64,000 bases of DNA from Byssothecium circinans (taxonomy: Eukaryota; Ascomycota; Dothideomycetes; Pleosporales; Massarinaceae). The notes below the pieces were generated by a model, which made no database searches, was not told the DNA's origin, and worked only from the letters and a program-made list of their open reading frames with translations. The translations under genes and the position numbers were made by a program. Below are positions 24,599-59,238 of this stretch, piece after piece; position 1 is the first letter of the stretch; the number at the start of each line of letters is the position of its first letter. The DNA lies in NCBI GenBank assembly GCA_010015675.1, contig ML977036.1:38289-102288 (forward strand), read 5' to 3'.

Positions 24599-24603
24599 AA
24601 AAA
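24599..24603 (-). terminator. RNA polymerase III terminator of tRNA-Met
   Basis: A run of five T on the minus strand begins 13 nt after the tRNA discriminator base (24616), the expected position for a pol III stop signal. Confidence 0.7.
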
Positions 24604-24615
24604 GAATACTCATTA

Positions 24616-24746
24616 TAGCAATTAAAGGTTTCGATCCTTTGACCTCCGGGTTTCAATTTTATATGAGCCCTGATTTGGTTAGTGAGAGAATATGATACAA
24701 CGAGCTGGTGAAGCTTACCGGCGCTCTTCCCCTGAGCTAAATCGCT
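24616..24746 (-). tRNA. tRNA-Met(CAT), elongator type, with two insertions
   Basis: Read on minus: acceptor arm AGCGATT (24746-24740) pairs with AATTGCT (24623-24617) with one G-T wobble, discriminator A at 24616. The D arm is GCTC/GAGC with A-box TAGCTCAGGGG. The T arm is AAAGG/CCTTT with loop ATCGAAA; B-box GGATCGAAACC. The anticodon stem is split. CCG (24721-24719) is followed by 49 nt (24718-24670), then GG, loop CTCATA with anticodon CAT (24665-24663), then a 10-nt insertion TAAAATTGAA at the canonical 37/38 position, A38 and CCCGG. Deleting both insertions restores stem CCGGG/CCCGG, a seven-base loop with U33, a five-base variable loop (AGGTC) and a full cloverleaf. The 10-nt insertion is a normal site for a tRNA-endonuclease intron. 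The 49-nt insertion is described separately. Confidence 0.82.
24670..24718 (-). other. Spliceosomal-type intron inside the tRNA-Met anticodon stem
   Basis: The 49-nt insert starts GTAAGC, contains CACTAACC near its 3' end and finishes AATCAG. This is the same layout and length as the mRNA introns in this window (46-65 nt, GTAAG, CTAAC, CAG). It sits between positions 29 and 30 of the tRNA, where canonical eukaryotic nuclear tRNA introns do not lie. Because a G follows each boundary, the insertion could be shifted by one base. How a pol III transcript would be processed here is unknown. Confidence 0.65.
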
Positions 24747-25000
24747 TTGTAGTTGATTGATGGAAATCTCCGGGCACTATTAAATACATATACATGGATG
24801 GTTTATCTACGGGTTGTGGGAGGGGTCGTCACACTGGCATCTGAGCGTTTGAGTGAGTCACCGCCGCGGCCGAAAATTTCAAACTCACTACATGAAGAAA
24901 ATTGCGGGGACGGAAGGATACTAACGCCTACAGGCGCACCCAGTGATTCCTAAATATAGATCAATAGTCGATATACTAAATTGCTGCTCATCTGATTCTA

Positions 25001-40943: not shown

Positions 40944-41534
40944 ATGACTGTATTGAACGGCAAACTAATGAGAATGATAAGATTTTTCGCAATGGTATGG
41001 CCTACAATCTCGTCATGGCACTATGCATAAAGGATGCGCTAAAATCTAAACGGCCCCCATGTTATTTCCGTCAACGGTCAGACTACCTAGGCAAGGCTGC
41101 GATGCCACATCAGTCCCGTAAATTTCCGATCATTTCAACCAATAATACCTGCCTTCCAGTAAGCCTTCCCTCTTTACGGGACAAGCTTGTCATATTTTAG
41201 GAAGAAAAGCGACCAACCCTGGAAGCTTCCTAGTCCACAACAACGAACTTAGGTTAGAATGAGCACCGCCTCGCGACCGTTGGATTTCCGAACGACTCCT
41301 TTGAGCAACTGAAAGTCGACGAGCGAACCACTGTCATGGTTGGGAATTCGTATAAGGAAGCACTGGGGGCTTGGATTCGTAAAGTAGTTCAATTCACTTT
41401 CTTTCATCGGTTCTTCTATCTTAACCCAGTCTTTCATTTCAAAGAGTCGTTCATTTACTAATTACCTGCGTTACTTTCCCGACACCACTTATACCCACCA
41501 ACTTATATTTCTTTCCTTCGAAGCATTAAGCATA
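40944..41534. promoter_or_regulatory. Upstream region of the cutinase gene
   Basis: 590 bp without supported coding sequence; it includes the cutinase promoter and leader. A 62-codon minus-strand open frame (41437-41249) was judged insufficient. Confidence 0.4.
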
Positions 41535-42507
41535 ATGAAGTCCACCGTTATCTCTTCAGCTCTCCTCGCCTCCCTCACGATTGCGAGCCCGGTCGATGTA
41601 CCCCGCGGTACCCCAGCAAAAATCGATGTCTACACAGAGATGGACGACATCACCGCCGGCAAGAGCCCCTGCAAGGGCAACGCTGTCATCTTTGCCCGTG
41701 GAACTTTCGACTCTGGAAACGTTGGTGTGTGGGTCGGTCCCTATCTCCACGCAGGACTTATTGAAGAAGACGAAGACTTCGCGTTCAACGGCGTGTCTGA
41801 GCAGGACTATCCAGCCAACCTGATAGACTATGCCAAAGACAATGGGAGCGAGAATTGCGGAAAGTCAATGGCCAAGGCCGTGGAGGCCTACGTCAAGAAG
41901 TGCCCGACCGCCAACGTTTTCCTATCTGGATGGAGGTATGATTCATTCCCTCTATGGATATGAAGGTCCACGCTAATTCCGCCACAGTCAAGGCGCTCTG
42001 TGCGTACACAAGGGTGTCAAAGCCCTCGCCAAGTCAACCGCGTTCGGGAATGTCAAAGGTGTCGCCACTTTCGGCGATGAAGCCGCGCTTATGCCCTCCG
42101 TGCCCGCTTTCCCGAAGGACTTGCCTGTAGAAGCCTACTGCAACCAAGATGTGGCCGCCCCGGACGTCCTCTGCACCGATTCCCTGACCTCTGGCTTCAA
42201 GCTACCCACCTCCATCTCCGAGTTCAAAGATATCGTCATCGATGCCCTAGTTGATCTCCTCAAAGTCGCTTTCACCTCGGACCAGAGGACGCAGGCTGTG
42301 AAGCTACCGTTCACGCTGGCTTACAACTTCTTCGGCGTCACCGACTACTTCACGCAAGACCTCAAGACCGGAAATCTCCGCCGCTGGATGGTCTTGCCTC
42401 CTCACTTTGTGTACGGGAGCAATGGTATGGCGGCTGACGCTGCTAAGTTCTTCGGCAAGGAAGCAAAGAAGGCAAAGGCTGCTGCTGCCAGTATCCGCAG
42501 TGGATAG
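41535..42507 (+). CDS. Secreted cutinase-family serine esterase
   Basis: Exons 41535-41935 and 41988-42507 (52-nt phase-2 intron) give 306 aa. A signal peptide is clear (MKSTVISSALLASLTIASP). The family core begins CKGNAVIFARGTFDSGNVGVW, matching the cutinase ARGS...GN.G region including the oxyanion segment. The nucleophile motif GWSQGA is created across the intron (Ser codon split AG/T). The acid residue lies in a Cys-bounded segment (YCNQDVAAPDVLC) with an insertion compared with classical cutinases, and the His is likely in LPPHFVYG. At about 290 mature residues it is longer than classical 200-residue cutinases, with an extra segment (about 180-230) before the His. Probably extracellular hydrolysis of cutin, suberin or other esters. 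Confidence 0.88.
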
Positions 42508-45091: not shown

Positions 45092-47059
45092 CTACTGCTT
45101 CCCCTTTACGAGGTCCCAGCACCGCCTCATACCCGTCGACAAAGTCTCCCCGTCCATGTCCTCCATCGCAACCCATTTGCGCGCCGGAGAACCCGAGATT
45201 TTGGCTTTAGTTGCACCTGCGTCCAGACGGAAACGCTGCACGTGCATCGTGAGCTTGAGGTGGCTAAACACATGCACCAGCGACCCCAGCTCGTCCACAA
45301 ACTGCGCTTCGCCGAAATCCACATCACCTCCTGCATCGATACCGTCCAAAAAATTCCTCGCCGCGGCTTTCCTCGACGCCGTGGTGTTCGAAGAAGACGG
45401 GAGAGTGGACTGTGGAAACTGCCATAGAGAGGCGAGAAGACCTTTCGCTGGTCTCTGCTCGATCAACCACTTGCTTGGTAGATCTGGGGCTGGCGATAGG
45501 AGCTCGATGATGCATATTACGGCTTCTTCTTCTGCGACTTTCTTTTTGGGGATTTTCTTGGGGAAGAGGGAGCAGTATGCTGTTATGCGTTTGAGGGTTG
45601 CTGTGTCTGATGAAAGCGTTGGTGTTGATGATGCTTTTCTCTTCTTCGAATCGTTGGCTTGCGCTGATTCCAAATTCTCGTCGTTCTCCGCAGTGGAGAG
45701 CGGATCGGGTTTCGCGGTTGGTGTCTTGACGGCGAAGTAGTGCGAGATAGTCCTCGATGGCGCCTTCTTTGGTTCGACTTTCCTCTTCTTAGTCTTGCTC
45801 GATTTCGTGGCAACTTCTCCCTCATTTTCTTCATCATCGTCATCTTCAGGCGCGGTAGCCAAATCCTCAGTATCCAATCCTTCACACAACGCACACGCAT
45901 CCTCAATATCCCCCACCTCTTCTTTCACTCCATTTGCCTCTTTCCCGCCCTTCCCTCTCTTCCGCGCCAACACCGCCCCCTCCGCGTAACCTCTACAGGT
46001 GCCCTGTATCGGACACTCCTCGCACTTCGGCCTCGGCGTACAAACCGTACTTCCTAACTCCATCAATGCCTGATTCCACATACCCGGAGCCTTGCTCCTC
46101 TTCCCATCTTCCTCGCCTTTCAATCGACCCACACTCTTAACCAACAAATCCGCGACGTCCCATAACTTATCATTTATCTTCTTGTCTTTACTATCAGCAT
46201 AGACACCCAACTGCCGACTCAAAACGCGAATCACATTGCCATCCAGAACAGGTTCAGAGACGCCAAAAGCGATACTAGATATCGCGCCGGCGGTATACCG
46301 ACCGATTCCCGGGAACTGTTGCAGCTCTTCGGCGGTACTTGGGATAAGACATTTCGAAGAGGAAGATGGCTTGGATGCCGATTTCGCGATCATGGCTTTG
46401 GAACCTTCATGTAGCCGAGTAGCACGCGAGTAATATCCCAAACCTTTCCAAGCGGCAAGAACATCGTCGTGGTTTGCCTCGGCGAGGTCCTGAACAGTAG
46501 GCCATTTTGCGATCCATGATTTGAAGTAAGGGATGACAGTTGACACGCGTGTTTGTTGGAGCACTATGTAGAATTAGCATCTGTTCTTTGATGTGCTCTG
46601 AAAACTCGATGCACGTGTAGTTGAAGGAAGGATGCCAAATACACGTGACCGCGTGAAGTCGCGTAAGATCGCGGCTCAACGTGTACAAAACGACCAGACA
46701 TCGATAAAAGGGCCAAACTCACTGATCTCACTAACCCAAACTTCATACGCCCTCCTCGCCAACACCTCATCTAAGTCATCCTCTCCCTCCCTTCCCTTAA
46801 AAATCTCCGGATCAATCCACTTCTTCCGCCACGGCATACTCCGCTTTTCCTCGATCCCCTCAAACCACCTCAGCAACGCGTCCACGCTCTTCCCATCATC
46901 TAAAAGAAGTGGGTAGTGATACCCTAGCGTATGGTTACGCGCAGGCGGTATTGCTGCAGGAAGCGGCGAGTCAGGTTTGGGGAAAGAGGTGAAGGTGGGT
47001 TTAGAGGGAGGGACGCGTTTTGATGGCATCGCGGGTTTTGCTTTTCTGCGCGAGGGCAT
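45092..47059 (-). CDS. A/G-specific adenine DNA glycosylase (MutY homologue)
   Basis: Exons 47059-46723 and 46563-45092 (159-nt phase-1 intron, joined at ATG of MLQQTRV) give 602 aa. The base-excision enzyme removes adenine opposite 8-oxoguanine. Motifs: catalytic Glu in SEIMLQQTRVS, helix-hairpin-helix FPGIGRYTAGAI, catalytic Asp in LDGNVIRVLSR, the Fe-S cluster cysteines CTPRPKCEECPIQGTC, a long Lys/Glu/Ser-rich linker (about 330-430) with KKRKVEPKK as likely nuclear localisation signal, and a C-terminal Nudix-like domain (PSKWLIEQRPAKGLLASLWQ) for 8-oxoG recognition. The first Fe-S spacing is C-x5-C instead of the usual C-x6-C. The start at 47059 (MPSRRKAKP) gives a basic N-terminus; an ATG upstream (47125) is possible. 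Confidence 0.93.
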
Positions 47060-56246: not shown

Positions 56247-59238
56247 TGTGCGGGGGAAATGTGTCGAGTATGCAGTTGATGGGAGTTGATGAAGGAAAGT
56301 AGGCAGGTTCCGGTTGCGCGCGGCGGAAGCTGAGGTTCGGGGGTTTTATCAATGTAGTCTACGTTTCTTGTCCGAAATGTGGTGATGCCACATCGCCAAC
56401 CCACCCCAGCACGGAACCAAAGGATGATCCGCTCCGGCCTTGGCGAAGAAAACTACAAAACCTTCGGCTCTGAGCTTCTGTCCCTCGTAAACTCGCCCCC
56501 ATGGAATTGTGGTCTCATTGCGAAGCCTCAAACATGGTTATGCACCGCTTATAGTCCTCAATAGTAAGCTGTCCCCACACTCTTCTCATCTCAGCGCACT
56601 GCTGACGTGAACAGCGCTGCTCTTTGTCCGGCCATATCATCGCCCTTCGCCTTTGTGCGGCCGCCGTGGAGAACAAAAAATCTCACGAGTGCGCGCCTCA
56701 CTTGCTGTATGGCTGCAGGCTGAAACCGCCCTGTCGTCACTTCATCTGCGGCAAGGCGCGCGGGCGTCCTCGATATTTCAGGGAGGCGTGCTGCCTTCTG
56801 GACTAATGCCGTGTCACTACTGCACAAAGCCGGCGTAGCAAACATCCACCAACTTGGAGCAATTTATCTCTACCAATCGTGCCGGCTTTCGGGCATCGTC
56901 GACCCGGCGCATGGTCGATAAATATCCAAAGCTCGCTGTGCCATGGGGACTTGGACGGGCCGGTGCAGCGGTCGGAACCCGTAGTCCCATTTAATCTCAT
57001 CGAATCGGAGTCAATTCTCTTGGTGCTCGTCCACAGTTTGGAAGCACTCCACAGCTGGACGTGATGAACTCTGGCTGGGTTTCGATTTGGGATTGCAGGA
57101 TTGACGTGATGTAACTTCACCAACACTCTGGCCCTTTCCTCTACCTAGGTAGCCCTATGGAATAGGCCTATTTTGGCGTGAAGGAGAACAACGACCTTTT
57201 ACTCACCGCGGTACTCTTGCCTCTGGCGTGGGTACAGTGGTCCATCAATTTAGGTCTACATGAGCATATCTGTGACATATTATAGTTTGTTGGAGGCTTG
57301 AAGTGATGACTGTCTGGGTGTACGTTTCGCACAGCTATTGCCAACTCTATTCTCACTGGCACTAATACCACGCTTGCGAGGCGGTGGCGCTGATGAAACA
57401 CTACGGAGTAAAATGAGTCAATGCCATATCGGCGATGGGCTTGAGCTTCCTGAAATGGCGATTTGCGTTGGCCGGTGGTGCTGAATTATTATTGATAGAC
57501 CCCGATGTCTGTCAAGGAGGTCAGCAAAGGCGTCCGATTTGGCAGCATTAATCTAGGCTAAACGGTTCGCGGCGAGCAACGCCTGTCATGCAAGAGCCCC
57601 AGAATTAGGAATACCGGTGTGCATGTAGGACTTCAAGTGTGTCGATTTAGAGGGGAGGGACCAGGGCCATGGCAAAGGCTGCTCTGGCACGCTTCAGTCC
57701 GGATGTTAGCAGCGTCTATGGTCTTGGCATCATCTCGACAACCGTCGTAGTGGAGTCAGCTTGAGCGGCCTGTGGTCAGCCCGTGTGCGGATCCTGCCAC
57801 TCAACGGTCAGGGTGGGCGAGGGATATGCAGCCACCGCGAGTTTGTTTCGCCGCGGCCTGGGTGTGATGCGGTGATGCTGTGCAAGCGCCGCAGCGTCCG
57901 CCCGGCTGGCACCACTTCAAGCTGGACCTGCTGTGAATGTCGTGCGGTGCATATAAGAAGAGGGGGTATTATTATACTATTGTCGCTGCTGACGGCTGAC
58001 CACATCGCCCTGATTGCCCTGCTCGGTGTCGTGTACAGTCACTACATATGCACCGCGCCGACTCGACGTCTCCCGTGATCATCATTGGTGTTGTAGGGCG
58101 GACTTGCAGGCTCCCCTGGCTCTATGTGCGCGCCAAACACAAGCCACCAGAGCTGCCAACGTCTAACCTAGTGCTTGGTCTCCCGCCGCAATCTACAGTA
58201 CCATACAGTACGCTCGTCATCCCGCTCCGCTTGACCCGCTGGACTATTGCTGCTGCTCTGCCTGCCTGCTTCTGCATCACCACTCCACCACCGAGGCCGT
58301 GGTAGAAGACGCCGTGGTTGATTGATCGGCAACGCTCCGCTCCCAGGCCTGAGTCCGACACGGCTGCGTCGCCACGCTGTACCTGTACCACACTCCCAAC
58401 CCGCCGTTGTACGCGTGCGCCCTCACAGCCCTCCACTATCGCCGACACGCCCGGCCAGGCAGAAGCCACATCGCATAGGGACTGCGCTGCCCTGCCCTAC
58501 TTCTGCGATTGCGCTGCCCTGCGCGGCGCTGCACTGCACTGGGGGCCTTGTCGATTGTCGACGTCGTGGGAGTGGTTCCACGCAAACCTCATCCTGCCCT
58601 CACCACTGACTTCTCGCACTCCGTCCGCGACATCTGGACAACACGTTGCCCTGCGCCCTTGCATGCACCGCACCCGCACCGCACCATCGCTCCTGCCTCG
58701 CCTGAAAAGCTTATCTATCGGCCGCTGCTTCCCCGCGCACACGTCGCCCCTCCTCGTCTAGAAAGAGAAACCGCGACTGCCCACGGCTGACCATCGACGC
58801 TTCCGTCACAAACGCCAGACCCTTCTTCACCAGCCCGAATCGTATACATAGACTCTCAGCGTCCAACTTGCACACAGATCGCTGCGTCCGCCTAAACATA
58901 AATCTCCGCGTCCGCTAAAATTACGCAGGCGGAGCGCCGCTGCTCGCAGATTGGTCACGATTCATAAGACATGTCATGCGCAGCAGGCGAGCGAGGACTT
59001 CGCAAAGGCATAGGCACGAGCCGGTTTGGGTGAGAACGTCTTCTAGCATTGAGTGCAACGCCTATACCTTCGTGTAGGCACCGCGCGACGAGGCAGTCTC
59101 ATTCGCTCTACTCGCAGCCATCGACGCATCCGACCGCTGAAAGAAACACCACCACACCTCACTTCACATTCCAACTTAGCTACCTGACACCTCGCAGCCG
59201 AACCATCACCTCCCCATCTGCCGCTATCTACAGTCACC
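56247..59238. other. 3-kb intergenic region upstream of the GT41 gene
   Basis: The longest gap in the window. It contains the Sec62 promoter and the upstream region of the GT41 gene. CT-rich and CA-rich stretches over 58.1-59.2 kb look like a long pyrimidine-rich promoter or leader. Open frames are short and unsupported. Confidence 0.5.

Follow-up and report, generated by a model that had tools for sequence, protein, structure and literature searches.

Predicted spliceosomal introns in the initiator tRNA gene and other nuclear tRNA genes of Byssothecium circinans

The initiator tRNA-Met of the ascomycete Byssothecium circinans appears to be encoded by a gene that is interrupted twice, by a spliceosomal intron of the U2 type within the anticodon stem and by an ordinary tRNA intron at 37/38. 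We put at about 0.87 the probability that this is a working gene, transcribed by RNA polymerase III (pol III) into a pre-tRNA carrying both introns, and that at least 14 other tRNA genes of the genome are to be read in the same way. Nuclear tRNA introns are taught as the work of the Sen endonuclease alone, at 37/38; we know of no nuclear tRNA gene with a spliceosomal intron, nor is the spliceosome known to act on tRNAs of this sort. The gene lies in a stretch of 64,000 nucleotides, here called the window, on contig C60 of the B. circinans assembly (Dothideomycetes, Pleosporales, Massarinaceae; 48,443,569 bases in 109 contigs). The MutY-like ORF at 45095-46573 of the window is 100% identical to a B. 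circinans protein, and a cutinase of this species matches at 41388-41963. An H/ACA snoRNA, snR80, is found at 57111-57261 on the plus strand (Rfam RF01269, 51.9 bits).

The window gene and its sister copy

A first-pass annotation had proposed, at 24616..24746, a tRNA-Met gene with a 10-nt insert at 37/38 and a 49-nt insert at 29/30. The coordinates were exact, with the gene on the minus strand (24746-24616), while the elongator identity that was implied had to be given up: the gene is of the initiator type. Its sequence runs AGCGATTTAGCTCAGGGGAAGAGCGCCG (49 nt) GGCTCATA (10 nt) ACCCGGAGGTCAAAGGATCGAAACCTTTAATTGCTA, with the following parts, all on the minus strand:

24719..24746, exon 1: acceptor 5' strand, D arm and nucleotides 27-29; full pairing with the other exons; A1:U72
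24670..24718, 49-nt spliceosomal-type intron at 29/30: GTAAGC...CACTAAC...ATCAG; site common to the initiator gene of contig C16
24678..24684, branch-site-like CACTAAC within this intron: predicted branch A at 24679, 9 nt from the intron 3' end
24662..24669, exon 2: nucleotides 30-37, anticodon CAT
24652..24661, 10-nt canonical tRNA intron at 37/38, TAAAATTGAA: C32 able to pair with the G at intron position -3
24616..24651, exon 3: nucleotides 38-73, with the T arm (A54/A60) and the acceptor 3' strand
24729..24739, box A, TAGCTCAGGGG, unbroken
24627..24637, box B, GGATCGAAACC, unbroken
24599..24603, T5 run, candidate pol III terminator, beginning 13 nt past the tRNA 3' end
24756..24767, upstream ATTTCCATCAAT, common to the window and C16 initiator genes

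Removal of both inserts lets all arms pair, as had been claimed, in 21/21 stem pairs, and ARAGORN then reports tRNA-Met(CAT). The resulting cloverleaf, with its CAT anticodon, has A1:U72, a GGG/CCC anticodon stem, A54 and A60, hallmarks of initiator tRNA-Met.

Further tRNA-Met genes were sought with a pattern, CTCATA followed by a T arm, designed to catch them with or without an intron in the 5' half. Among the 11 places where it occurs in the genome, three are tRNA-Met genes: the window gene, a second initiator on contig C16 and an elongator on C76. The sequence of the C16 gene is AGCTGCTTGGCGCAGTGGAAGCGCGCCG (GTAAGT...TACTAAC...CAG, 54 nt) GGCTCATA (GAGTT) ACCCGG..., with its long intron likewise at 29/30 and only 5 nt at 37/38; it has the initiator features of the window gene and the same 21/21 pairs. 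The intact tRNA-Met(CAT) copies elsewhere that might have marked the window gene as dead were thus sought without success, as both initiators found in the 48.4 Mb have the 29/30 insert and the single elongator has an intron too. A pattern for the unsplit 5' half of an initiator (GGAAGMGCGNNGGGCTCATA, two mismatches allowed) finds one place, with CTCATT instead of CTCATA, and ARAGORN sees no tRNA there; no intronless initiator was found in the genome by pattern search. BLAST is too blunt for such a search: with either initiator copy as query it misses the other, so that the copy count rests on patterns.

Unspliced, the window gene is silent to the usual tools. ARAGORN at default settings and an Rfam search at E<=10 find no tRNA at the locus, and a tRNA covariance model built from 20 spliced tRNAs gives it 11.3 and 8.9 bits, chance level, with matches elsewhere in the window at 11.0 and 9.0. 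When 79 spliceosomal-like introns of the 64 kb were removed one at a time, a tRNA emerged only from removal of the 29/30 insert (0/120 in the reversed sequence). With only the 49 nt removed and ARAGORN left to place the other intron, the C16 gene becomes Met(cat) and the window gene Ser(tga); this last label is an ambiguity of intron register, and it counts against the two-intron reading.

Single-intron folds were considered as well. When long introns are allowed, ARAGORN reads the window gene as Phe(gaa), its C16 counterpart as Arg(tct) and the elongator as Leu(cag) (rows assigned by coordinates). On shorter stretches it reads the window gene as Ser(tga), with an intron of 59 nt, in a fold that keeps U33 but in which a T-C mismatch closes a four-pair anticodon stem, and the C16 copy as Arg(tct) with a three-pair D stem. 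The two-intron fold has 5/5 anticodon-stem pairs and CAT in both initiator copies. We rejected the single-intron folds because they disagree between paralogues, whereas removing both introns gives Met(cat) with ARAGORN in all three Met genes; the better single-intron fold that would have removed the first claim was accordingly not encountered. Among the finders, tRNAscan-SE 2.0 is described as seeking non-canonical introns in archaeal candidates (PMC8450103, in part).

Intron-bearing tRNA genes across the genome

The window gene had been noted as a lone oddity, and this it is not. Spliceosomal-type introns, 16 in all, were recognized in 15 tRNA genes on 13 contigs, at places from the acceptor stem to the T loop. 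The spliceosomal-type reading of the first insert held up in every check applied to it. The 13 genes beyond the initiators came from matches to RF00005, the Met pattern, BLAST and lists of B boxes:

Elongator Met, C76: intron in the D loop
Lys(CTT), C4: intron at 52/53
Lys(CTT), C11: intron at 52/53
Lys(CTT), C24 (L096, G000:C24:209130-209530): intron at 57/58, splitting box B
His, C8: intron at 52/53
Thr(TGT), C53: intron at 50/51
Thr(CGT), C37: intron at 3/4
Ser(GCT), C33: intron in the variable arm
Val(CAC), C4: intron in the D loop
Arg(CCT), C23: GC...AG intron in the D loop, from reading of the sequence and the ARAGORN fold after splicing
Arg(CCG), C8 (L088, G000:C8:948650-949100), minus strand: intron in the D loop
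Arg(TCT), C18 (L089, G000:C18:86730-87180), minus strand: introns in the D loop and at 26/27
Arg(ACG), C12: intron at 4/5, with a weak branch motif, TGCTCAT

Positions come from hand alignment, and those in the D loop may move by one or two bases; in Arg(CCG), His and Val the splice sites can be placed in registers that differ by a few nucleotides. Removal of all introns gave the expected isotype in each of the 13 genes tested, and the remaining two come out as Thr(CGT) and Arg(ACG). A canonical intron at 37/38 is present as well in 11 of the 15 genes, that of Val(CAC) being 16 nt long according to ARAGORN. The Arg(TCT) gene combines a canonical intron with two of the spliceosomal type, one of them GC-AG, separated by an exon of 8 nt. 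In a limited search for copies, all those found had an intron for the initiator (2/2), the elongator Met (1/1) and Lys(CTT) (3/3), as had the only copy found of Ser(GCT), Arg(CCT), Arg(CCG), Arg(TCT), Thr(TGT), Thr(CGT) and Val(CAC). An insert-free copy was also found for His and for Arg(ACG).

The census of nuclear tRNA genes stands at 50. At least 44 matches to RF00005 (63 of 1497 candidates scored), less nine that were set aside, left 35, to which patterns and BLAST added 15. Introns of the spliceosomal type thus occur in 15 of the 50 nuclear tRNA genes identified, a proportion that is no unbiased rate since the Met genes were searched for by name. The nine comprise five repeats (L047, L048, L052, L054, L059), L051 on a 32-kb contig, and the degenerate L029, L055 and L056. 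The five repeats are dispersed, near-identical tRNA-like sequences of 81 nt whose 3' flanks resemble one another; they are either a repeat derived from a tRNA or an organelle tRNA copied into the nucleus. Excluded from the 50 as well are L083 (234-348) and L084 (242-358), near-identical tRNA-like genes that score about 50 bits against RF00005 and share an unusual conserved insert in the anticodon region, with no GT-AG solution. The search for B boxes covered 100 of 139 places, and its GC-restricted repeat all 56 of 56. Anticodon patterns for Phe, Tyr, Asn and Trp led to no confirmable tRNA in the genome, so that the census is incomplete, and BLAST with eukaryotic tRNA queries gave a single match, read as Pro. 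Since, in addition, BLAST with one initiator misses its sister, diverged intron-free copies of some isoacceptors are possible.

Virtual splicing with a branch filter gave 49 tRNA matches in 425 trials, many of them overlapping loci or registers, against 0/311 in the reversed control. In these trials ARAGORN mislabelled the window initiator and the Lys gene of C24 as Ser(tga) and Arg(TCT) as SeC(tca), and it missed the His gene of C8, Arg(CCG), Arg(CCT), Thr(CGT) and Arg(ACG); a further run regained four of these five, Arg(CCG) in several registers. No tRNA emerged from the B-box candidates L085, L086, L091, L098-L102 and L120-L125, nor from the anticodon-pattern candidates L109-L117.

Signals of splicing and transcription

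The 16 introns are 48-64 nt long. Fourteen begin with GT and two with GC, the first six bases being GTAAGT (6), GTAAGC (2), GTATGT (2), GTTAGT (2), GTAGGT (2), GCAAGT (1) and GCACGT (1), in keeping with a GTRNGY-like consensus. All end in AG (CAG 13, TAG 2, AAG 1), and all have a branch-like CTNAY (15 CTRAY, 1 CTCAT) with its A 9-12 nt before the intron end. In shuffled sequences of 14 introns, with three registers allowed, the same rule was satisfied in 0.08-0.3% of trials per intron. Three mRNA introns of the window resemble them, with spacings of 9-11; each was verified by setting its spliced translation against a deposited protein:

MutY mRNA intron, 159 nt: GTGAGT...TGCTAAT...CATAG, spacing 10; spliced product identical to the Byssothecium protein
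Cutinase mRNA intron, 52 nt: GTATGA...CGCTAAT...CACAG, spacing 11; spliced product identical to the Byssothecium protein
TMS1 mRNA intron, 46 nt: GTACGT...TACTAAC...CTCAG, spacing 9; spliced translation continuous with the Clathrospora homologue

Across nine ORF pairs of the window the top intron candidate has a spacing of 9-11 in four, an unverified one at 10 among them; the other five, unverified, give 16, 17, 18, 31 and none. Among the 21 canonical 37/38 introns of the genome, one starts with GT and another ends with AG, but none combines a GT/GC start with an AG end; the branch rule cannot apply to most of them, given their shortness.

These signals bear on the thought that an unusual tRNA splicing endonuclease cuts the inserts, of the sort at work in archaea, red algae and nucleomorphs. 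Removal of non-canonical introns has indeed been reported in algae and nucleomorphs, with the bulge-helix-bulge (BHB) motif seen as critical in Cyanidioschyzon (PMC4090602, in part). Here, in the single register tested, none of the 16 introns formed a complete BHB central helix of four pairs, and the best reached three; the yeast enzyme is said to cut at 37/38 only (PMC4033280, in part). An endonuclease would leave the GT-AG ends, the branch motif and its fixed spacing unexplained, and we consider this origin very unlikely.

That the intron-bearing copies are pseudogenes, killed by an intron or an intron-like insertion, would suit the insert-free copies of His and Arg(ACG). Against this, for ten isoacceptor sets every copy found in the limited search carries an intron, and the two initiators have diverged in a telling way. 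Their exons differ at 14 of 72 sites, 12 of which lie in stems and make up six pairs changed on both sides, so that six of the 21 stem pairs are doubly changed and none is broken; when those 12 sites are substituted at random, all pairs survive in 0.8% of trials. Their 29/30 introns are 61% alike in a gapped alignment. Because of these compensatory changes both copies look selected as tRNAs. The window gene is most likely an evolving functional gene and not a fresh casualty, which makes the recent silencing once envisaged for it improbable, and a general death of these genes is scarcely credible.

The signals expected of pol III genes are also in place. Boxes A and B can be read across the junctions by eye, with the exception of the Lys gene of C24, where box B is split by an intron that itself contains a box-B-like GTTCGAATC. 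The introns at 52/53 end in CAG, the final G of which is the first G of GTTCGA; in the D loops of Arg(CCG) and Arg(TCT) the initial G of the intron completes box A, and in Arg(CCT) the last G of box A is replaced by C. In 15/15 genes a run of at least five T begins no more than 41 nt past the 3' end. A TATA-like upstream motif, as a perfect 6-mer, precedes 10 of the 15 intron-bearing genes as compared with 16 of 27 other tRNA genes; in the two acceptor-stem cases it stands 42 and 44 nt ahead of exon 1, distances also covered by other tRNA genes. Readable boxes, TATA-like motifs and T runs are the trace to be expected if selection maintains pol III transcription across the intron. It is hardly to be believed, then, that the tRNA sequences merely lie within longer pol II transcripts with ordinary introns, their use as tRNA being incidental: the intron signals do match those of mRNAs, but at 15 loci on 13 contigs the intron sits within a cloverleaf that its removal restores, terminators are present throughout and the TATA-like motifs are those of other tRNA genes.

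As to where the introns come from, a mobile family (introners) was sought with BLAST for 13 of the 16, and each matched itself only, except that of Arg(CCG); no family appeared. Over 48 nt the Arg(CCG) D-loop intron shares 85% identity with the 5' flank of its own gene. It is likely a recent local duplication in which a branch motif was acquired or improved.

A proposed pathway, its precedents and its meaning

Directed by boxes A and B, pol III would transcribe the window gene as far as the T run. U1 would pair with GUAAGC and U2 with CACUAAC of the pre-tRNA, and the spliceosome would remove the 49 nt in the nucleus, whereupon the anticodon stem could form and the tRNA refold. Trimming of the ends and export would follow, and the tRNA splicing (Sen) endonuclease and a ligase would at last remove the 10-nt intron at 37/38. 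The spliceosome is placed first because the 29/30 intron parts the strands of the anticodon stem, which the endonuclease reads. What the sequences show is the anatomy of the genes, the signals they have in common, the compensatory changes and the failure of the searches to turn up an intron-free initiator; that pol III transcribes the genes, that the spliceosome acts on them and acts first, and that the mature tRNA is functional is what we infer. To be weighed against the spliceosome are the exons it would have to handle, down to 8 nt between introns in Arg(TCT) and 3 nt plus leader in Thr(CGT), which are extreme. Pol III transcripts have no cap, and this too counts against spliceosomal processing.

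Precedents are partial. A 1993 paper on a deuteromycete reportedly described spliceosomal-type introns in a fungal nuclear 18S rRNA gene, likewise mRNA-type introns in a gene for a non-coding RNA, with the difference that the transcript is made by pol I and the host is rRNA. Besides fission yeast, some other fungi have mRNA-type introns in the gene of U6, which is a part of the spliceosome and whose intron is attributed to reverse splicing. The nearest pol III precedent is the U6 snRNA gene of fission yeast, which, like the tRNA genes here, has an mRNA-type intron in a short pol III RNA (PMC10484740, in part). Unlike U6, the hosts in B. circinans are tRNAs for Lys, His, Thr, Arg, Ser and Val, with initiator and elongator Met. 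The U6 gene of this genome is intact and without intron (contig C14, L118); at about 1501-1600 and 1754-1816 of L118 it faces a shorter inverted U6 match about 150 nt away.

The canonical 37/38 intron, removed by the Sen endonuclease and tRNA ligase, is present at 10 nt in the very gene discussed, whereas the new introns lie elsewhere, are longer and have GT/GC-AG ends and a branch motif. Archaea, Cyanidioschyzon and cryptophyte nucleomorphs share with B. circinans sites other than 37/38 and several introns per gene, 29/30 being one of the archaeal sites (PMC4090602, in part); their introns have a BHB or are very short and are linked to the endonuclease, in contrast to those described here, which showed no complete BHB helix in the register tested. 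According to the same source, insertions in eukaryotic D or T arms are mostly taken as pseudogenes, with nucleomorphs and a red alga named as exceptions. In the open-access literature covered (including parts of PMC11782384, PMC6461891 and PMC13149111), no nuclear tRNA gene with a spliceosomal intron was seen.

If the proposed reading is right, the spliceosome acts on capless pol III transcripts with exons of a few nucleotides, and such tRNA genes escape standard finders, as the window gene escaped ARAGORN and Rfam. Both initiators, the only elongator Met found and several isoacceptors found as sole copies would need splicing, on which ground the spliceosome is probably an obligatory tRNA-processing enzyme in this lineage, with translation initiation and part of decoding dependent on it. 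By the same probable account, ordinary intron gain invaded pol III tRNA genes at no fewer than ten positions, limited mainly by boxes A and B, and one intron was copied from its gene's own promoter flank. B. circinans would then be a natural system for asking how introns enter and survive in non-coding genes. With mRNA-type introns in many tRNA genes, that of the start codon included, translation would be tied to splicing, and protein synthesis, to judge from sequence, should depend on the spliceosome.
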